Shown here: one piece after another, positions 4,812-17,742 of the stretch
Position numbering within the stretch: position 1 is the stretch's first letter
Layout: each line of letters starts with the position of its first letter
From: a virus
IMG/VR virus record: IMGVR_UViG_3300035698_003923
Location: 1-20,130 of that record
Direction: 5' to 3' (one strand)
Length of the DNA: 20,130 bases
Notes under the pieces: generated by a model
What the model saw: only the letters and a program-made list of their open reading frames with translations
What the model was told of the DNA's origin: nothing
The model's database searches: none
Position numbers and translations under genes: made by a program

Positions 4812-5230
4812 CAGAGATCCCTCAGACCGGAACGGGTGAACTGGCGATCGTCGCCAACGAACTCGACGGTGGCGTCGACCGGTGCGGCGGCACTCACGCC
4901 GTCGTCGCCCAGGGTGGCCTTGCCGAGGCTCACGTCGCGCAGCCAGGCCGTCGCGTCGGTGTATGCCCGGCGGACCTGTTCGGTCGGCGCGTCGGCGTGC
5001 AGGTAGTAGCGTGCGACGTCGCCGGCGACCCGCACCAGGCGCGCCGGCACCGTGGCCAGCGGCAGCGCCGCCCGCGCCGCGATGTAGCTGTCGATCAGCT
5101 CGTCGGCGTCGGCCAACGCCTTGCCGATCACCGCGGCGTCGATCGAGCCAACGTTCGCGCGATCGGAGAGCTGGATCAGTTCCTGCTCTCCGAACCGGTC
5201 GACCAGGTCCTGTTGGGCGGCGTAGGTCAT
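4811..5230 (-). CDS. DUF1320 family head-tail protein (Mu gp36-like)
   Basis: This 139-residue protein begins MTYAAQQDLVDRFGEQELIQ, the standard DUF1320 opening. It continues with ADADELIDSYIAARAALPLA and VRVAGDVARYYLH, the helical core of this head-tail connector-like family. Mu gp36 is its homologue. It is thought to belong to the connector between portal and tail; this is family-level inference. The start overlaps the end of the HI1506-like gene as ATGA, and the end overlaps the gpG-like start. Length is normal for the family (about 140 residues). Confidence 0.92.
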   Translation of the reverse strand: MTYAAQQDLVDRFGEQELIQLSDRANVGSIDAAVIGKALADADELIDSYIAARAALPLATVPARLVRVAGDVARYYLHADAPTEQVRRAYTDATAWLRDVSLGKATLGDDGVSAAAPVDATVEFVGDDRQFTRSGLRDL

Positions 5231-5544
5231 GCCGCCTCGCCGCCTTTCTTGGGTTTCGCCTTGCCAGCGGCGGCGGCCTTGTCGGCGGCAGCCTTCTCAG
5301 CGGCAGCCTTCTCAGCGGCAACCTTCTCGGCGGCAGCCTTGTCAGCGGCGGCCTTGTCGGCAGCGGCCTTCGCGGCCGGATCGTCGACGATGCGAACGTC
5401 GAGCATCGGGTCGGCTTTGAGGGCCGCGAGTTGCGTGTCGGCGAAGCGGTCGATCGGATGGTCGACGGGCTTCGCCGGGTGGGCGACACCGGCGCGACGG
5501 AAACCGTCGCGCCGGGCCGTGATGCGGATGAGTTGCCGCACCAT
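5227..5544 (-). CDS. HI1506-like (FluMu-type) protein with Ala/Lys repeat tail
   Basis: This 105-residue protein starts MVRQLIRITARRDGFRRAGV and continues AHPAKPVDHPIDRF. That is the short GFRR-G-xxHP domain of Mu-like prophage FluMu proteins found between the major capsid and DUF1320 genes. A segment with LAALKADPMLDVRIVDD completes the conserved part. From about residue 57 it changes to a run of AAADK/AAAEK pentads that should form one long charged helix, ending in KAKPKKGGEAA. ATG 5544 lies two bases after the capsid stop. The role is unknown; its position suggests an accessory head or connector protein. The repeat tail is unusual and is coded by a DNA tandem repeat. Confidence 0.8.
   Translation of the reverse strand: MVRQLIRITARRDGFRRAGVAHPAKPVDHPIDRFADTQLAALKADPMLDVRIVDDPAAKAAADKAAADKAAAEKVAAEKAAAEKAAADKAAAAGKAKPKKGGEAA
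5270..5374 (-). repeat. 15-bp tandem repeat, seven units, coding
   Basis: Seven consecutive 15-base units close to GCGGCAGCCTTCTCA (plus-strand reading) fill this interval. Two are identical (5285-5299 and 5300-5314) and the others differ at one to four positions. On the minus strand each unit encodes a five-residue step of the K-A-A-A-D/E type. The period keeps the reading frame, so copy number can change without breaking the gene. Confidence 0.85.
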
Positions 5545-5546
5545 GA

Positions 5547-6443
5547 TCAGGCAGCGAGCAGGGTTTCGACGTGCAGGGTCGCGGTACCGGCGGCCACGTT
5601 GGTCGCCCCGGCCGCATCGCGCTCGGCCTTCAGGACTTCCAGGCCCCTCTTCTCCAGCACGCCCGGCACGACCAGGACCATCGGCTTCAGGCGCAGCTGG
5701 CGGCCGTGATCGCCCTTCATGTCCTGCATGGCGGCGCGGGCGGCCATGTAGTTGTCGGCCGTCAGATCCTGCTTGGACGCGTAAGCCAGCTGCCACAGCC
5801 CGAAGCCGGCGGCGGCGCGCATGTCCACGCCCCACAGGTATTCGTCACGCATGAACACGTTCGGATCGTCCATGTTGGTGAGCGACGTCAGCTTGGCGGC
5901 GCGGCGCAGCTGGAAGATCATCGGCTTGATGGCGCGCGAGGTGTCGAGCAGGAACCAGGGCGTGCCTGCTCCGCCGGCGAAGTTCGACACGCTGATCTCG
6001 GCACCGTCGGCGCCGATCACCGGGTGGTCGGTGTCGAAGAAATACTGGCCGTCGAAGCAGGCCGTCGTGAAGCCGGCCTTGAACAGCTCCCACACCAGAT
6101 AGTCGGGATGCTCGCCGGCGGTCTGCGCCAGGTCGGCGACCAGCGGGTTGTAGACCCCGATCTGATCGTCCTCGATGTCGTCGCGGCTGACACCGACGGT
6201 GTTCTCGAACTTCCGGTTGGTGACCTTGTAGCCGTCCTTGGCGACGTTCTCGATCACCCGGTCGCCGATCCACTCGCGCATGCCCCGCAGTTTTGCGAGC
6301 CAGCGGTAGTCGTTCTCGCGGGTGGTCGAGGGCACCTGCATGGCGATCGTCTGCCAGGTCGGTTTGATGCCGCCGAGAACACCGTTGAAGACCGTGTTGA
6401 AGCTGGTGTTAAGGCCAGCCAGGGACGCGCGGTTGACTTCCAT
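5547..6443 (-). CDS. Major capsid protein, Mu gpT family
   Basis: This 298-residue protein is a clear Mu gpT-type major head subunit; Mu gpT is about 305 residues. Recognisable blocks are LAGLNTSFNTVFNGVL at the N-terminus, a segment ending RWLAKLRGMREWIGDRV, FENTVGVSRDDIEDDQIGVY, and FFDTDHPVIG in the middle. The C-terminal part includes LKPMVLVVPG. It forms the icosahedral shell with the HK97 fold. Start ATG 6443 follows the cement protein stop by 15 bases. The order of protease, cement and capsid is the usual head module, and the protein is expected to be one of the most abundant products. Confidence 0.96.
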   Translation of the reverse strand: MEVNRASLAGLNTSFNTVFNGVLGGIKPTWQTIAMQVPSTTRENDYRWLAKLRGMREWIGDRVIENVAKDGYKVTNRKFENTVGVSRDDIEDDQIGVYNPLVADLAQTAGEHPDYLVWELFKAGFTTACFDGQYFFDTDHPVIGADGAEISVSNFAGGAGTPWFLLDTSRAIKPMIFQLRRAAKLTSLTNMDDPNVFMRDEYLWGVDMRAAAGFGLWQLAYASKQDLTADNYMAARAAMQDMKGDHGRQLRLKPMVLVVPGVLEKRGLEVLKAERDAAGATNVAAGTATLHVETLLAA

Positions 6444-7298: not shown

Positions 7299-8357
7299 TC
7301 AGCCCTCCTGTTCCGCGGCGCGGGTCTTCTTGAAGTCGTCGACGCTGATGCCGAGGCCAGCGCAGATCGCGGTGTCTTCCAGGGTCAGCGAGCCATCGCC
7401 CGGCACCTTGGCCGGCGCGCCGCCGGTCAGGATCGCAGCGGTGACGACGGGAGCGGCGGCCAGCCAGCCCTCGAACCCCTTCAGGTCCTTGGCCGCGTAG
7501 GCGGTCGCCCAATTCTTTTGGGCCGGGATCAGCTTGCCGGCAGCCATCGCGGTCTCGACCACCGACGTGGCCTTCTCGCTGGCGCGCTCGGTCTGGATCG
7601 TTGCCAGCGCTGTCTGCAGGGCGTTCACCGTGGCGATCGGCGCGAACTGCGCCGGGTCCGGTACCGAGGCGGGCTTGGCCGCCTTGTCGATCGCGGCGGC
7701 CAGCGCCGTCTCGGTCGTCTCGGTCACGCTGAGCTTGGCCGCGAGCGCGGTGACGATCGCCGTCGACGCGACGAGCTTCTGTGCGTGGGCGAGTGCGGTG
7801 GCCTGGTCAGTGTCGGGCTTGAGGCCCAGCGCTTCCAGAAACGCCTTCAGAACTGGGTCCAACTGGACCTCCTGTTGCTGCTGGTGGGAAAGGGCGGTGA
7901 GGGTCAGGGCGGGGTTGTTGGTCAGCGCCGCGCGCTTCAGGCGCAGGATCCGCCGGTCGTCGATCGTGTGGTCGAACACCGGCGACAGGTAGCGGTACTC
8001 CCGAGCGGCGATCGCCTGGGAGGCGGCCGCGGTCCACTCGACGCGCCCCCAAATGCCGTCGGCGCGAACCTCCAACTGCTTCAGCCAGCCGGCGGCCCTC
8101 GCCGTTCCACCCACGCCCGGGACCGCGGCCAGGTCGATCTGATGGTCGTAGTCGATCGGCAGGTCCAAGCCGCCGGCAGCGGCCAACGAAGCGCTGACGA
8201 CGTCGGCTGAGGCGTCGTTGCGCCAGGCCGGCCGGCCATCGCGCGACGGCACCACGCCGATCGGCAGCAGATGCACCCAATCGGGCGCGCCGGCGCCGGC
8301 GGCGGACAAGTCAACGACGGACCCGAGGGCCGTCTGTACGGGGTGGCGTGTCGTCAT
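7299..8357 (-). CDS. Head maturation protease/scaffold, Mu gpI family
   Basis: From ATG 8357 the protein has 352 residues. The N-terminal domain shows the Mu I protease pattern: DWVHLLPIG, a DGR motif, LDLPIDYDHQ with the conserved DYDHQ block, AAGWLKQLEVRADGIWGRVEW, YRYLSPVF and the LTNNPAL motif. The C-terminal half is Ala-rich and helical and ends with ISVDDFKKTRAAEQEG, consistent with the scaffold part made from the same gene in Mu. It should process capsid and scaffold during head assembly. No Shine-Dalgarno sequence precedes either ATG 8357 or ATG 8366. The conserved MTTRHPVQ-type start and the nearby operator-like dyad favour a very short leader. It is the first gene after the long gap. 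Confidence 0.93.
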   Translation of the reverse strand: MTTRHPVQTALGSVVDLSAAGAGAPDWVHLLPIGVVPSRDGRPAWRNDASADVVSASLAAAGGLDLPIDYDHQIDLAAVPGVGGTARAAGWLKQLEVRADGIWGRVEWTAAASQAIAAREYRYLSPVFDHTIDDRRILRLKRAALTNNPALTLTALSHQQQQEVQLDPVLKAFLEALGLKPDTDQATALAHAQKLVASTAIVTALAAKLSVTETTETALAAAIDKAAKPASVPDPAQFAPIATVNALQTALATIQTERASEKATSVVETAMAAGKLIPAQKNWATAYAAKDLKGFEGWLAAAPVVTAAILTGGAPAKVPGDGSLTLEDTAICAGLGISVDDFKKTRAAEQEG

Positions 8358-8394
8358 GCCGAACATCGTGGAGACGGCGGCGGCGTGAAAACAT

Positions 8395-8410
8395 GGTGGC
8401 AAACGTCACC
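8395..8410 (-). promoter_or_regulatory. Candidate activator operator upstream of the protease gene
   Basis: The 16-bp sequence GGTGGCAAACGTCACC (plus-strand reading) is an imperfect dyad of half-sites GGTGRC and GTCACC separated by four bases. It is centred about 45 bp before ATG 8357 and has the same length as, and 12 of 16 identities with, the dyad upstream of the endolysin gene. Mu late promoters carry C-activator dyads at a comparable distance, so a role as late operator for the head operon is inferred. No good -10 box is evident. Confidence 0.5.
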
Positions 8411-8474
8411 ACGGGAAGCGTTTAAATGGGGAGTGTGGGAGCCCCTCAGAGCGGGGCCGGGCCGGGTCGATCAG

Positions 8475-8537
8475 GCCCGTGCGGGCGGATCGGACCCCGA
8501 AACCACCCTCAGCATGGTGGTTTCGGGTTGCACGGGC
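8475..8537. other. Nested inverted repeat (hairpin) in the central gap
   Basis: The core is a perfect 12-bp stem, CCCGAAACCACC (8496-8507) and GGTGGTTTCGGG (8516-8527), with an 8-nt loop. It is flanked by a second perfect pair, GCCCGTGC (8475-8482) and GCACGGGC (8530-8537). No T-tract follows on either strand, so an ordinary intrinsic terminator is unlikely. A protein-binding site, cruciform or RNA structure in a leader or readthrough transcript is possible. Confidence 0.7.
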
Positions 8538-8747
8538 AAGAGGCCGTCCGCGCCGTCGCTCCGCAATAGGCCGCCATCCGCCTGCGGGTCGTTTCAGAAA
8601 CGTTTAAGAGATTTCAGGGCATCTTCGGAGGCCGGCGGTCGATCTTGGCCGTTCTGGGGCTTCCTACGGGCTCGCCAGCACGCCTGAAACGCCCTTCAGC
8701 CGGATCGCTGCCCGGATTTAAACGCTCTTAAAATCCGGCCTTTAAGA

Positions 8748-8776
8748 TTGACCCGGCACCGGGCGGGCACTATCTC
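8748..8776 (+). promoter_or_regulatory. Possible rightward sigma70-like promoter
   Basis: TTGACC (8748-8753) and TATCTC (8771-8776) are separated by exactly 17 bases on the plus strand. The -35 match is good and the -10 match moderate. Transcription would run rightward, antisense to the minor head gene, and no plus-strand gene follows. It could be chance in a short AT-richer patch. Confidence 0.25.
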
Positions 8777-8897
8777 AATGAAGCGACGCGCGTGACACGG
8801 TGAAATTCTCCCGGCCGTAGCACCGCCGCCGAGGCCCTCGGGCCGATAGCAGCGGGAGCGTCATGCGGGGTTACTGGGAGGCCCCGCCGCGCGTCGT

Positions 8898-10124: not shown

Positions 10125-11729
10125 TCAGCCGTCCAGGTCGGCGATCGGCGCGTCGAACTCGCCGGCCAGCCGGGCGGCGAAGCCGGCTCGCGCCAGAGCC
10201 TCGGTCACCTCGACCGGATCCATCTGGCCGACCAACTCGGGCAAGCGGTCGCGGAACTCCTCCAGGTTGGTCACCTGGTCGAGCAGCGTGCGGATCGGGT
10301 CGACGACCGGGTCCATCATCTGCTCCCAGTCGCCGAGCACCCCTGCCGCCAGGTCGTCGATCGCATCGTCCTGGCCGGGCTGTGCCGCGGCCAGCTGCTG
10401 TTTGACCTTGCCGGTCGTGTCGGGGGCGTCGATCGCTTCGGCCTCCGGCTCCGCGGCGCCCGGCACCGGCGCCTTCGCTGCGGGCTTCAGCAGTTCCTCC
10501 GTGTCGTCCGGATCCGGCAGGCCCAGCTTGTCGCGCACCACCGCGGAGCCGACCTTGCCGCCCATGCCGACGTACTTCTCGATCAACGGCATCAGCGCGG
10601 TCATGTCGGTCTGATCCGGCAGGCCGATGAACGCCCGCGGATACTTGCCGTCCTTCGGTGGCCCGAAGTTAAGGTCGATGATTGGCTTGACCAGGTCGCG
10701 GTTGATCGGGACCGCTAGGCGCTTGGCGTCGGATTGCTGGATGTCGGTGCGCACCTGGTCGTGCACCTTGCCGACTGCATAGCCGCCGGCGATCGCGTCG
10801 GTGGTGCCGACCTGGCCGAGGACCGCCTTGGACACCTGCTGGTCGAGGAAGTTCGCGAGGCCGCTGAACAGGCCGCCGTCGCCCTTCGATGCCGCCTCGA
10901 CGAACTCCACGGCCATGCTGTCCGGGATGATGCCGGCGGCGTCGTGGCCAAGCTGGGATACGGCGCGCAGTAGGATCCGGCGATCGTCGGCCGTAGTACC
11001 GGTTGGATACTTGCCGAGCCGAAGCGGCTGGCCATAGGTCTCCAGAAATGACACCCAATCCTTGAGGACGAAGTTCTTGAACAGCCAGGCCCACGCCACC
11101 GGCCGGGCCAGGCCGCCGCGGATCGGGATGCCGGACTTCGCCTGAATGATCGTGGTGATGAACTTGTAGGCGGCGAGCGGCTGCGGCTGACCGTCATCGC
11201 CGCGCAGCCGGATTGTGCGCATGTCCACCTGGTCGAACATGAACCAGCGTGGATCGCGCCACTCCAGACGCTTCGGCCACCATTGCTTGGCAGTCGTCTC
11301 CCACAGGATCTCCACGACGCTGAAGCCCTTGCCGACGGCGTCGAGCATGTCGAACAGCTCGTCTTCCAGTTCGTCGCGGCGCAGCCACTCCCGGATGAAG
11401 TCGGCGTGCTCGATGTAAGGGGCGTTGTCCTCGGCCGCCTCGACGGTGATCTCCAGCTGGGCGACCGCGCGCTTGCGAGCGCCGAGCACGCCGACGTAGT
11501 GCAGATCCTTCTCCTCGATGTCCTCGGCCAGCTCCAGGTACGACACCGGGTCGCCTTCCTCGGAGCCGCGCAGGATGCTGCCCAGGCGCGCCGGTGTGAG
11601 GCCGCGCGACGGGTGCTCGCCGATCGGGCGGCGCACGCCGGCCATTGTCGGGCCGGCCAGCTCATCCAGCAGATCGGCGCGGCGCAGCGGCGTCACACCG
11701 TCCGCGCCAACCAGGATCGGGGTTGCCAT
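10125..11729 (-). CDS. Portal protein, DUF935 family (Mu gp29-like)
   Basis: This 534-residue protein is a typical DUF935 portal. It shows RPIGEHPSRGLTPARLGSIL near the start, then YLELAEDIEEKDLHYVGVLG, AVAQLEITVEAAED, the WETTAKQWWPKRLEWRDPRW block and FKNFVLKDWVSFLETYGQP. It then has GLFSGLANFLDQQVSKAVLG. The last 100 residues are acidic and Ala/Pro-rich, then helical. It forms the dodecameric ring through which DNA enters and leaves the head. Start ATG 11729 has AGGAG eight bases upstream. It follows large terminase and precedes the gpF-like gene, the standard Mu packaging order. Confidence 0.96.
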   Translation of the reverse strand: MATPILVGADGVTPLRRADLLDELAGPTMAGVRRPIGEHPSRGLTPARLGSILRGSEEGDPVSYLELAEDIEEKDLHYVGVLGARKRAVAQLEITVEAAEDNAPYIEHADFIREWLRRDELEDELFDMLDAVGKGFSVVEILWETTAKQWWPKRLEWRDPRWFMFDQVDMRTIRLRGDDGQPQPLAAYKFITTIIQAKSGIPIRGGLARPVAWAWLFKNFVLKDWVSFLETYGQPLRLGKYPTGTTADDRRILLRAVSQLGHDAAGIIPDSMAVEFVEAASKGDGGLFSGLANFLDQQVSKAVLGQVGTTDAIAGGYAVGKVHDQVRTDIQQSDAKRLAVPINRDLVKPIIDLNFGPPKDGKYPRAFIGLPDQTDMTALMPLIEKYVGMGGKVGSAVVRDKLGLPDPDDTEELLKPAAKAPVPGAAEPEAEAIDAPDTTGKVKQQLAAAQPGQDDAIDDLAAGVLGDWEQMMDPVVDPIRTLLDQVTNLEEFRDRLPELVGQMDPVEVTEALARAGFAARLAGEFDAPIADLDG

Positions 11730-14265: not shown

Positions 14266-14651
14266 GGACTGGCTCCCTTGATTTCGTTCTCGACGAGCAT
14301 GTCCACCTTGCGGCCGATCGCGCTGACCGCCCGATCCATGCCGTTCATCTGACCGACCACCGCCTTGACGTCACCGCGGATCGCTTCGAGCGACACCAGC
14401 AGATTGTTGAAGTCCCGGTGCGACGGGGTTGTCTCGGCCTTCTGCTGCATCAACGAGATGAGCGTCTCGATCCCGTTCAGCCGCTGATCGTGCCGCTCGA
14501 CGGCGAGCTTTCGGGCGTCAGCTTCCTCAGCCAGGTCACCGCGGGTCGGGAAGATGGACCGCAGGTACAACAAGCCGATCGCCAGCAGGAAATTGCCGGC
14601 GACAGATAGCGCGCCCAGCCAGGCGGGAAGCTCTCCGAACCACTCAATCAT
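14262..14651 (-). CDS. DUF2730 membrane-anchored coiled-coil protein (Mu gp25-like)
   Basis: This 129-residue protein starts MIEWFGELPAWLGALSVAGN. A single transmembrane segment spans roughly residues 9-28 (WLGALSVAGNFLLAIGLLYL). A long amphipathic helix follows, with ERHDQRLNGIETLISLMQQK, and ends near KVDMLVENEIKG. The layout of short N-terminus, one membrane helix and coiled coil is that of DUF2730, found beside gp26-like genes in Mu-like phages. Its role is unknown; membrane location in the lysis/packaging region has led to suggestions of a lysis accessory. ATG 14651 overlaps the preceding zinc-finger stop as ATGA, which settles the start. Confidence 0.85.
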   Translation of the reverse strand: MIEWFGELPAWLGALSVAGNFLLAIGLLYLRSIFPTRGDLAEEADARKLAVERHDQRLNGIETLISLMQQKAETTPSHRDFNNLLVSLEAIRGDVKAVVGQMNGMDRAVSAIGRKVDMLVENEIKGASP

Positions 14652-14857
14652 CGCGACGCGCGGTCCCTGTCCTCTTGGCATCGGACGCAGGTGTTCGTTT
14701 CGTAAGCCACGCGCCGAGCCAGCGGGATCTCTTCTCCGCACTCCACGCAGATCTTCGAGGGTGTGACCGGTCGCCGGCAAAGGGCCGACCGCAGCGCATC
14801 AGCGCGGTCGGTTTCTTCGCGAGCCTGGGCGGCGTCGATTATGTCAGGCACCGCCAT
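14648..14857 (-). CDS. TraR/DksA-type C4 zinc-finger protein
   Basis: This small protein of 69 residues has the TraR/DksA zinc finger: CVECGEEIPLARR, then CVRCQED, giving CxxC-x17-CxxC. It is preceded by a short helix with DAAQAREETDRADALRSAL. In F plasmid TraR and phage relatives such proteins bind in the RNA polymerase secondary channel and shift promoter use without ppGpp. The ATG at 14857 overlaps the previous gene by 14 bases. A GTG at 14851 has a better placed GAGG and may be the true start. Mu-like phages often carry a member at this place. Action on RNA polymerase is a family inference. Confidence 0.85.
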   Translation of the reverse strand: MAVPDIIDAAQAREETDRADALRSALCRRPVTPSKICVECGEEIPLARRVAYETNTCVRCQEDRDRASR

Positions 14858-15059
14858 CCTCGCGATCGGTGGCCGCCTGGATACGGTGATGCAGGGCGTC
14901 GGTGACCTCCTGCAGCTCCGCCCACTCGGCCGGGCTCGGGTCTCTCTTCTCGGCGATTGCTCGCTTGACGGTGTCGGCCGCGGCGATCGCCCGCGGGATG
15001 CCCTCGGCGGCCAGCTCCGCGATCTGAAACCCCAGCGCGACCCTCTCAAACGGCGTCAT
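14844..15059 (-). CDS. Hypothetical small helical protein
   Basis: This 71-residue protein starts MTPFERVALGFQIAELAAEG and is predicted by eye to be almost all helical and charged in its second half (RAIAEKRDPSPAEWAELQEV). I do not recognise the family. It is supported as a gene by the ATGA overlap with the holin-like gene stop at its start, by the normal codon pattern, and by the tight packing of the cassette. It lies between the lysis genes and the TraR/DksA-like gene. No membrane segment or zinc site is visible. Confidence 0.7.
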   Translation of the reverse strand: MTPFERVALGFQIAELAAEGIPRAIAAADTVKRAIAEKRDPSPAEWAELQEVTDALHHRIQAATDREDGGA

Positions 15060-15726: not shown

Positions 15727-16140
15727 TCAGTAGGACCAGAAGGCCGGGCGCTGGGCGTGGTAGCCCTCCGCCACGGCCATATCGTCGAGGTGGATGAAGC
15801 GCGGGCCGGCGCTGCCGTTCGGCTGCGACACACCGATTCCGGTGAACCCGAACGATCGGGCGCGCTCGACGATCGTCAGCGCTCGAAGGCCGTAGATCTG
15901 GATATCGACGGCGCGGGCGAAAGTGTGCGAGCCAGGCTGCTTCTTCTTACGCTCGGCCGGGTGCGACGGGTGCCGATAACCGCTGGAGATCGGGAACTTG
16001 AAGCCGAGCGCCGTGCGCAGGGACTGCAGCTTGTCCATGAACGCCGGCACGATGATCAGCTCGCCGGTATGTTTGCAGGTCAGCTCCGCCGGCGTGAAAT
16101 TCGGCCAGCCCCAATGCTCCGGAACAGATGGCTTTGACAT
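15727..16140 (-). CDS. M15-family peptidase endolysin
   Basis: This 137-residue protein has the D-Ala-D-Ala carboxypeptidase-like M15 fold: FTPAELTCKHTGE at the start, SGYRHPSHP (53-61), GSHTFARAVDIQI (H72 and D79 as zinc ligands) and PRFIHLDD with H117 as third ligand. Such phage enzymes cut peptide cross-links of the cell wall for lysis, in place of the muramidase used by Mu. I chose ATG 16140, the MSKPSVPEHWGWPNF start, because conserved residues begin there. The frame extends to a TTG at 16206 but that part covers the upstream hairpin. No signal peptide is present, so it needs the neighbouring holin-like protein to reach the wall. It is the first gene of the late block. Confidence 0.93.
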   Translation of the reverse strand: MSKPSVPEHWGWPNFTPAELTCKHTGELIIVPAFMDKLQSLRTALGFKFPISSGYRHPSHPAERKKKQPGSHTFARAVDIQIYGLRALTIVERARSFGFTGIGVSQPNGSAGPRFIHLDDMAVAEGYHAQRPAFWSY

Positions 16141-16223: not shown

Positions 16224-16239
16224 GGTGACGTTCGTCACC
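16224..16239 (-). promoter_or_regulatory. Candidate activator operator upstream of the endolysin gene
   Basis: GGTGACGTTCGTCACC is a perfect 16-bp dyad (two 7-bp arms, two central bases). It is located 12 bp past the stop of the Mor/C-like activator gene and about 90 bp before the endolysin ATG. The related dyad at 8395-8410 precedes the protease gene. In Mu the C activator binds dyads at Plys and PI at the matching places, so this is proposed as the late operator for lysis and packaging genes. Confidence 0.55.
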
Positions 16240-16250
16240 CCTTGGGGAAA

Positions 16251-16649
16251 TCAGCGTTCTTTGAGGGGAGCGAGCAACGGCAGATCGGCATCGCCGTCAC
16301 GAGCCTGCGCACGATGACGTTTCACGGTTCGCGCCGCAATACCGAACCGCCTGGCCATGTCTGAGGCGCTGCCCTCGCGCTGGACGATCGCCGCCCGCAG
16401 ACTGGCGGCACGCGTGGCTCGATGGCCGAACGGACCAAGCGGCACGTCGACGTGACCGGGACCGTGATTCTCACAAAGCCAAACCGCCAGCGGTTCGCCG
16501 AAGCGTTCCACGAACCGGTCGGTCGGGTGCTTCGGTACCACAAGGATCGCGCCACCGGCATCCCTCGCCAAACGCAGCGCCTCTCCGGTGCTCAACGCCT
16601 CGGCGACATCGGCCAGGAGTTTCGGGAGCGGGGGCGCGGCGTCGGTCAT
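16251..16649 (-). CDS. Mor/C-type transcription activator
   Basis: This is a 132-residue protein from ATG 16649, which shares one base with the stop of the DnaA-like gene and has GGAGGGG about ten bases upstream. It has the Mor/C family plan: a helical N-terminal dimerisation part, a FGEPLAVWLCENHGPGHVDV block matching the FGG-x-x-hyIP strand of the family, then a helix-turn-helix, SASDMARRFGIAARTVKRHR. In Mu, Mor activates the middle promoter and C the late promoters. The position immediately before the endolysin and late genes favours a C-like role, though one protein may do both jobs. Similarity is moderate and lacks a strict signature. The dyad just behind the gene is a plausible target. 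Confidence 0.72.
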   Translation of the reverse strand: MTDAAPPLPKLLADVAEALSTGEALRLARDAGGAILVVPKHPTDRFVERFGEPLAVWLCENHGPGHVDVPLGPFGHRATRAASLRAAIVQREGSASDMARRFGIAARTVKRHRAQARDGDADLPLLAPLKER

Positions 16650-17032
16650 CAGATCAGCCCCTCCACTGTTTGAAAGGTTGCCAACACTGGCACCGGAGCC
16701 GGCCACGCTATTGGCGATCGGGGCTTTCCTTGGTGGTCAACCGGATCAATCAAATCGGACGCCGCCAGGATGCGTGTGAGGTAGTCGGATTCCTTGCGCT
16801 GCCGGTCGCACGCCGCATGAATTCCACGGCGGACACCGCTCCGGTCGCGGTTGTAAAATCGACCTATCAGCGCACAGTCGTGATTGCCGTTTGATTGGCC
16901 GAGTAAAAACGCTGCCTGCCGTGCGGCGGAAATACGGTGCTCGCGAGACGGCCCGCGCAACTCTTCGACGGTTACCGGCCAAATCTGCGCAACAGCCTTG
17001 GCGATCTCACTGTTGAGGATACGCCGGCTCAT
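16649..17032 (-). CDS. Small protein resembling the DnaA DNA-binding domain
   Basis: This 127-residue protein starts at ATG 17032, overlapping the GemA stop as ATGA. Residues about 20-75 resemble domain IV of DnaA: VEELRGPSREHRISAARQAA (compare the ..SRKR..-x-x-x-ARQ-A helix), then IGRFYNRDRSGVRRGIHAAC (compare the G..F.-RDHSTV-..A signature). Here His of RDHSTV is Arg and Thr is Gly. There is no AAA+ ATPase domain, so the protein cannot act as a normal initiator. It may bind DNA in the early or middle phase, for control or replication. The C-terminal part is Pro-rich and unrecognised. Confidence 0.72.
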   Translation of the reverse strand: MSRRILNSEIAKAVAQIWPVTVEELRGPSREHRISAARQAAFLLGQSNGNHDCALIGRFYNRDRSGVRRGIHAACDRQRKESDYLTRILAASDLIDPVDHQGKPRSPIAWPAPVPVLATFQTVEGLI

Positions 17033-17742
17033 GATCCGACCCTCGCCTGGGCCTGGCGGATCGCCTTGCCGAACCACTCCATCACCCGATGCCAGTCCTC
17101 CGGCGCGTACTCGTGCGGCGCGGTCTTAGCGGTTGCCGCGATCGCCACGCCCCACCACCGGGCTTTCGGATTCTGAGTCGCGCTCAGCTCTGCCAGCCGA
17201 CGCCACTGTGCGGACACCACCGCGAACGGTTCATGCGAGGCGGCCGGCAGGTATGGTTCCCACTGGCCAAGCCCGTCCCGCGACCAGTCGACCCCGGCGC
17301 GCTCGGCCATCTTCTTCAGGCCCTCGATCGCCTTGCTCGCGCTGTCGACGTCCAGCCATTGCAGCGCCGCGACCCGCGTGGTGCGCTTGACGTAGGCGGC
17401 CAGCGCGTCCTCGGTCGGGTTGCGGACCTCGCCCAGGTGATAGAGCGACAGCCACAAGGCGCGCAGCTTGCGGGCCTGCTCGCCATCGGCCATCGGCCGG
17501 CGTCCAGACCGCACCGGCCGCGACTTCGCCGGCTTGAAGCCCTCCGCCTTGAAGTGCTCCAGCAGCTCGTCGAGTTGGCGATCGGACAGTTGCGCGCTGC
17601 TGGACTTGCCGGGGAACAGCCGGCCGATCACCGCGCGATAGGCGGCGTCGTCGAGCCGCAGCTCTTTCTTGGCGATGTGGATCTTCGCCAGCCGGGCGTT
17701 GCGGATCGGCGCCGAGGCGGCGCGCTTCGAGGCGGCAGTCAT
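17029..17742 (-). CDS. gemA: GemA-type regulatory protein (Mu gp16, DUF1018)
   Basis: The 237-residue protein shows the DUF1018 pattern: IRNARLAKIHIAKKELRLDD followed by AAYRAVIGRLF and SSAQLSDRQLDELLEHFKAEGF in the N-terminal half. The conserved second block is RKLRALWLSLYHLGEVRNPT. Then comes ALAAYVKRTTRVAALQWLD with the family's L-RWLD-like ending. In Mu, GemA (gene E16) alters host gene expression and DNA supercoiling; the molecular target is not settled. The start overlaps the zinc-finger gene stop as ATGA and its stop overlaps the DnaA-like gene. The C-terminal 90 residues, from about WSRDGLGQWEPYL, extend beyond the core and are unassigned. Confidence 0.88.
   Translation of the reverse strand: MTAASKRAASAPIRNARLAKIHIAKKELRLDDAAYRAVIGRLFPGKSSSAQLSDRQLDELLEHFKAEGFKPAKSRPVRSGRRPMADGEQARKLRALWLSLYHLGEVRNPTEDALAAYVKRTTRVAALQWLDVDSASKAIEGLKKMAERAGVDWSRDGLGQWEPYLPAASHEPFAVVSAQWRRLAELSATQNPKARWWGVAIAATAKTAPHEYAPEDWHRVMEWFGKAIRQAQARVGS

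Follow-up and report, generated by a model that had tools for sequence, protein, structure and literature searches.

The two 16-bp dyads that precede the late gene blocks of this phage would very probably act as operators of its own Mor/C-type late activator, with a recognition sequence that is specific to the clade of that activator. We infer the link between activator and dyads from their co-occurrence, their co-divergence, and a geometry resembling that of Mor. The window, i.e., the whole stretch of DNA that was analysed, comprises 20,130 nucleotides. The phage has all of its genes on the minus strand, and the dyads are therefore read on that strand. The features concerned are the following:

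16251 to 16649, minus strand: late activator gene, encoding 132 amino acids with a helix-turn-helix near the C-terminus; phrog_836, E=8.6e-16
16224 to 16239, minus strand: putative operator A, GGTGACGAACGTCACC on the transcribed strand, before the endolysin gene and 11 bp past the activator stop codon
16194 to 16199, minus strand: AACTCT, the -10-like hexamer predicted for the late lysis promoter, at +33 to +38 from the dyad centre
15727 to 16140, minus strand: endolysin (peptidase M15) gene; Pfam Peptidase_M15_3, E=2.7e-9, phrog_894; ATG at 16140-16138
8395 to 8410, minus strand: putative operator B, GGTGACGTTTGCCACC on the transcribed strand, before the head protease gene
8365 to 8370, minus strand: CACGAT, the -10-like hexamer predicted for the late head promoter, at +33 to +38 from the dyad centre
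7299 to 8357, minus strand: head maturation protease (Mu I-like) gene; Pfam Mu-like_Pro, E=6.3e-75; ATG at 8357-8355

Direct reading of the window gives GGTGGCAAACGTCACC at 8395-8410 and GGTGACGTTCGTCACC at 16224-16239 on the plus strand. The two dyads are identical in 12 of 16 positions as read, which confirms what a preliminary description of this DNA had claimed, and in 14 of 16 when one of them is reverse-complemented. That description had also placed the upstream dyad 12 bp behind a Mor/C-like activator gene; the neighbourhood holds, while the spacing, counted from the stop codon, is 11 bp. Site B is situated at the end of a 0.5-kb non-coding stretch, before the head protease gene, and no third such site occurs anywhere in the 20,130-base record. 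The pattern GGTGRC-N4-GYCACC is seen twice, the expectation from dinucleotide shuffles being 0.025 per 20 kb. A pair of 16-bp dyads located in both intergenic stretches and alike in at least 14 of 16 positions arose in 0 of 3000 shuffles, and one alike in at least 12 of 16 positions in 2 of 3000. This dyad-pair test replaced the plain alignment statistic for the two stretches, since a local alignment of them, taken from the window alone, was not significant; the case is thus based on the dyads together with the relatives. A search of the window against Rfam returned no match.

The activator belongs to PHROG 836, which is labelled "late transcriptional activator" and is a sister family of Mu Mor/C. 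Mor and C of Mu are found in PHROG 532 and also match PHROG 836 (E=1e-10 and 2e-11, respectively). With the Pfam model Mor (PF08765) the window activator scores 13.8 bits, which is under the cut-off of 24.9, and that of the close relative L005 scores 27.3 bits; the cut-off is exceeded by the activators of L005, L006, L007, L018, and L010. In a fold search of 350,542 chains with the AlphaFold model of the window activator (pLDDT 78), Mor (1RR7) ranked first, albeit not significantly (E=0.26), with C (9L0X) third and Mor (9L0Y) eighth, neither of them significant. The gene order, GemA (17029-17742), activator (16251-16649), endolysin (15727-16140), is that expected of a Mor/C member in a Mu-like phage. 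We regard the protein as belonging to the Mor/C superfamily, within the sister family of Mu C. A search of genome contigs with activator queries found nothing, and four distant activators, once aligned, proved too divergent for genome scanning. Most of the activators, as well as Mu C, finish in a short acidic/hydrophobic tail (e.g., DLFD, LPLF, PDLF), which is possibly a contact to RNA polymerase.

Several neighbouring features were observed in addition. Between GemA and the activator, a gene at 16649-17077 (minus strand) encodes a Bac_DnaA_C helix-turn-helix domain (E=3.1e-9); it occupies the region where Mu has Mor, and its product might be a middle-phase regulator or a replication-initiation helper. 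The lysis/packaging block includes a DksA/TraR-type zinc-finger protein (14648-15049, minus strand), and the endolysin ATG at 16140-16138 is preceded by an SD-like GAGG. The approximately 490 bp of non-coding DNA before site B (8411-8897) contain TTTAAACG-type repeats, within which region a long hairpin, CCCGAAACCACC...GGTGGTTTCGGG, is located at 8496-8530. Similar T/A-rich repeats are found in the same place in L005, L009, PeaS-P1, RhkS_P1, and Mu, where a gyrase cut site is annotated (NC_000929 17879); the stretch 8411-8897 is a candidate for a strong gyrase site.

In close relatives of the phage (clade 1, comprising L003, L004, L005, L008, and L009, with activators 70-100% identical to that of the window, among them relatives at 70-78%), both sites are kept, and the check named in the preliminary description, enrichment of the motif before lys and protease genes in relatives, thereby came out positive; operator A of L004 carries one mismatch. 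The arms GGTGAC/GTCACC are nearly invariant in this clade, and the loops vary (GAAC, GTTT, ATCT, ATGT, AGGT, ACCT). The imperfect half GCCACC of the window is replaced by GTCACC in L005 and L009, where operator B is the perfect dyad GGTGACGTTTGTCACC. Exactly 24 bp past the dyad, the hexamer CACGCT follows at both sites of L005 and of L008 and at site A of L009, the same place being occupied by CACGAT (window B), AACTCT (window A), and GAAGAT (L009 B). In L005 (from 15209 onward) and L008 (from 17632 onward), no match to the Mu-like protease was obtained after site B in the stretch covered; other genes follow, yet the operator and CACGCT are unchanged. This would be a module exchange downstream of the predicted late promoter.

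Composite motifs were searched in 2.9 million viral contigs, and matches were obtained only in contigs of phages with such an activator. GGTGAC-N4-GTCACC-N24-CACGMT occurs at five places in three contigs (L005, L008, L009), and GGTGAC-N4-GYCACCATGTTTT in five contigs, precisely those already known. The pattern of clade 3 (see below) has nine matches, each of them in a phage of this type; two of the contigs are new, and in these the motif stands directly before a protease gene.

In eight further clades of phages with PHROG 836 activators, both places are likewise occupied by a shared element peculiar to the clade:

Clade 2 (Rhizobium phage RR1-B, L013-L017): dyad TGACCGGAAC-N3-GTTCCGGTCA
Clade 3 (L011, L012, L018, L031, L032): dyad CCCCGAA-N4-TTCGGGG
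Clade 4 (RcapMu, RcWaterboi): dyad CCCCCGGAC-N4-GTCCGGGGG
Clade 5 (POA1180): dyad CCTGACA-N-TGTCAGG
Clade 6 (L010): dyad GGAAGT[AG]CTTCC
Clade 7 (RhkS_P1, PeaS-P1, L028, L029): CCCCCGAAAC..CWTCCCC or TGAA-N4-TTCA
Clade 8 (L020, L021): dyad GGGGAC-N4-GTCCCC
Clade 9 (D3112): element GTTGAACCCCTTC at both places

RR1-B and the contigs of L013, L015, L016, and L017 each contain four copies of the clade 2 dyad; those of RR1-B, at 11530, 18994, 26071, and 31108, are located after the activator gene and before protease, tape measure, and baseplate genes. The dyad of clade 7 (the clade of RhkS_P1 and PeaS-P1) is imperfect. The alignment of the A with the B stretch beats 500 of 500 shuffles in RR1-B, L018, L031, RcapMu, RcWaterboi, POA1180, PeaS-P1, RhkS_P1, and L029; shuffles as good were obtained in 3 of 500 cases for L010, 18 of 500 for L009, and 0 of 200 for D3112. 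Read by eye, a core GA[AC]-N3-5-[GT]TC about the dyad centre is common to all clades, with clade-specific flanks, the exception being two RhkS_P1-type sites that have ATC on the right. In L021, other sequence (4960-5665) separates the activator gene from the operator, which is kept before the lysis gene. The phage vB_PeaS-P1 has been stated to be without a Mor activator (PMC5488378); contrary to this, a PHROG 836 relative is present at 26760-27152 of KT381865. That the recognition sequence would differ from that of Mu C, as had been suggested for the window, is borne out, GGTGAC-N4-GTCACC being absent from the Mu regions that precede lys and I. The difference is broader than had been supposed, a distinct dyad occupying these two places in each activator clade.

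While the dyad changes from clade to clade, its distance to a -10-like hexamer would be fixed. Thirty-six sites from eight clades were lined up on the dyad centre and scored with the E. coli -10 matrix, averaged by clade. The score peaks at exactly +33, and 0 of 1000 shuffles attained a peak of this height, the clades being not fully independent of each other and the shuffles preserving base composition only. Across clades the hexamer starts 32-33 bp from the dyad centre (+32 in D3112); examples are CATGAT and CATAAT in L010, CACATT and CACTTT in POA1180, TGC-TATCTG in L029, and CAATGT, CATGGT, and CACTCT in RR1-B. Weak hexamers are found at window site A (AACTCT), at the A sites of clade 3, and in clade 8. 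Neither window site contains a sigma-70 -35/-10 pair. With the hexamer taken as -12 to -7, the dyad centre would come to lie at about -44.5, and the earlier expectation of a transcript start about 40 bp downstream of each site agrees with a hexamer at +33 to +38. Reading TGGCAC in RhkS_P1 as a sigma-54 element was rejected, because its spacing to TGC, judged by eye, does not fit.

The position of the protease start codon, as predicted from the sequences, supports this placement of the promoter independently of the -10 hexamer. In 12 of the 15 phages with a Mu-like protease, the ATG coincides with the predicted transcription start (about +45) and lacks a Shine-Dalgarno (SD) sequence; it is located at +46 in the window, L009, and RhkS_P1 and at +45 in L011, L018, L031, POA1180, L010, PeaS-P1, L028, L029, and L021. 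For RhkS_P1 the annotated protease start is the very ATG at the predicted start, and for LPB1, a relative of D3112, it is the corresponding ATG. RR1-B and RcapMu/RcWaterboi have a leader with an SD-like sequence before the protease gene, and in L005 and L008 the other genes that follow site B also have leaders with SD-like sequences. Since the start predicted for site B falls on the protease ATG, the protease mRNA is probably leaderless, which is suggested for the window phage and for most PHROG 836 phages. In D3112 an ATG is found at +44 at both places. The one after site A (D3112, L049, 1702-1750) lies about 290 bp ahead of the next annotated gene, so that the start of this operon may be unannotated.

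These data also bear on what else the dyads could be. It is unlikely that they are intrinsic terminators or RNA hairpins which close the activator transcript, insulate the head operon, and bind no protein. Such a structure would not need a -10-like hexamer at a fixed distance, nor arms that are fixed in sequence instead of compensating for each other; site A (16224-16239) lacks a T-run and was not flagged by a terminator scan, T-runs are absent in clades 3, 5, 6, 7, and 8, and the folding energy, around 0 in clade 7, reaches about -5 in L010. A terminator behind the activator gene is plausible in itself, and the simple scan weakly flagged the stem-loop with T-rich tail of site B (8395-8410) as terminator-like. 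In RR1-B and RcapMu the stems of the dyads are strong (-16 to -22 kcal/mol) and T-runs follow, and for these a double role as operator and terminator is possible. There is little probability, either, that the dyads bind another regulator which would silence or time the late promoters; the lysogeny repressor, a regulator of the host, and the DnaA-domain protein encoded upstream are examples. A dyad beside a promoter suits any dimeric regulator, and a DnaA_C-domain gene adjoins the activator gene; however, the motif follows the activator clade and, with its centre at about -44, takes the position of an activator such as Mor, where a repressor would usually overlap the -10 region, and for these reasons a repressor or host regulator is the less likely binder. 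Sites of a lysogeny repressor would be expected in the early region as well, and the 36-kb contigs (L004, L009) showed none there, leaving aside one additional site with one mismatch in each of the contigs of L004 and L008. A chance likeness of two GC-rich palindromes, for which the non-significant plain alignment might speak, is virtually refuted by the 0 of 3000 shuffles and, above all, by conservation of both sites in all relatives examined.

With the dyads understood as operators of the late activator, the following scenario is proposed. The activator would be produced from an earlier transcript, and its dimer would read the two GGTGAC arms of the 16-bp dyad, whose centre would lie about 44 bp upstream of where transcription starts. 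It would contact the polymerase next to the -35 position and bring host RNA polymerase, carrying its main sigma factor, to promoters with a weak -10 and without a -35 element. From site A the lysis/packaging operon would be turned on, and from site B the head/tail operon. The recognition sequence would be specific to the activator clade, and the spacing would be fixed.

It is somewhat more likely than not that PHROG 836 activators form a family-wide late-promoter system of Mu-like phages with an invariant frame, a leaderless protease message, the core GA[AC]-N3-5-[GT]TC, and flanks re-coded in each activator clade, so that related phages would not necessarily activate one another within the same cell. 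With operators at two to four places, the nine activator clades constitute a natural data set for how a helix-turn-helix family reads DNA. The operators predict late transcript starts for phages of the D3112, RcapMu, and RR1-B types, and leaderless protease mRNA in most such phages, if true, is directly testable in laboratory phages, e.g., D3112. Work on Mu C and Mor in E. coli goes back decades, and the kind of system is already known from Mu C. No description of operators of Mor/C relatives was found in the open-licence papers searched, and within that literature the PHROG 836 operators, the way they are re-coded clade by clade while the frame stays fixed, and the prediction of a leaderless protease message are new.

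A 37-bp transposition-free segment of phage Ab30 (PMC5977238) was considered as a late operator or protease promoter and rejected, since it is located immediately behind the Mu G homologue and precedes the anti-CRISPR genes. D3112 and more than 100 relatives possess, like the window, a PHROG 836 activator (E=6.6e-47) and their element at both places, with the core GAA/TTC where the window has GAC/GTC; the phage records examined do not annotate the D3112 element as an operator. At this distance, the relatives seem to share the same promoter layout with a rewritten docking sequence. In Mu, Mor binds a 16-bp dyad, centred at -43.5, at -51 to -36 of the promoter Pm, which lacks a -35 element, and C binds a related dyad in four late promoters (PMC4287176). 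The dyads of the window have the same length, with a centre predicted at about -44.5. Mor acts on a middle promoter through another operator sequence, whereas the PHROG 836 protein of the window is encoded immediately ahead of the endolysin, at the position that C has in Mu. The late promoters of Mu (Plys, PI, PP, Pmom) resemble those predicted here in that the activator gene is followed by the lysis genes, and in that a dyad which overlaps the -35 region or directly adjoins it on the upstream side accompanies poor -10 and -35 elements. The C-dependent promoters after C and before protease gene I correspond to the two places of the window sites. Differences are that C belongs to PHROG 532 and the window activator to PHROG 836, and that gene I of Mu has a leader, while the protease start codon of the window phage would coincide with the predicted transcription start.
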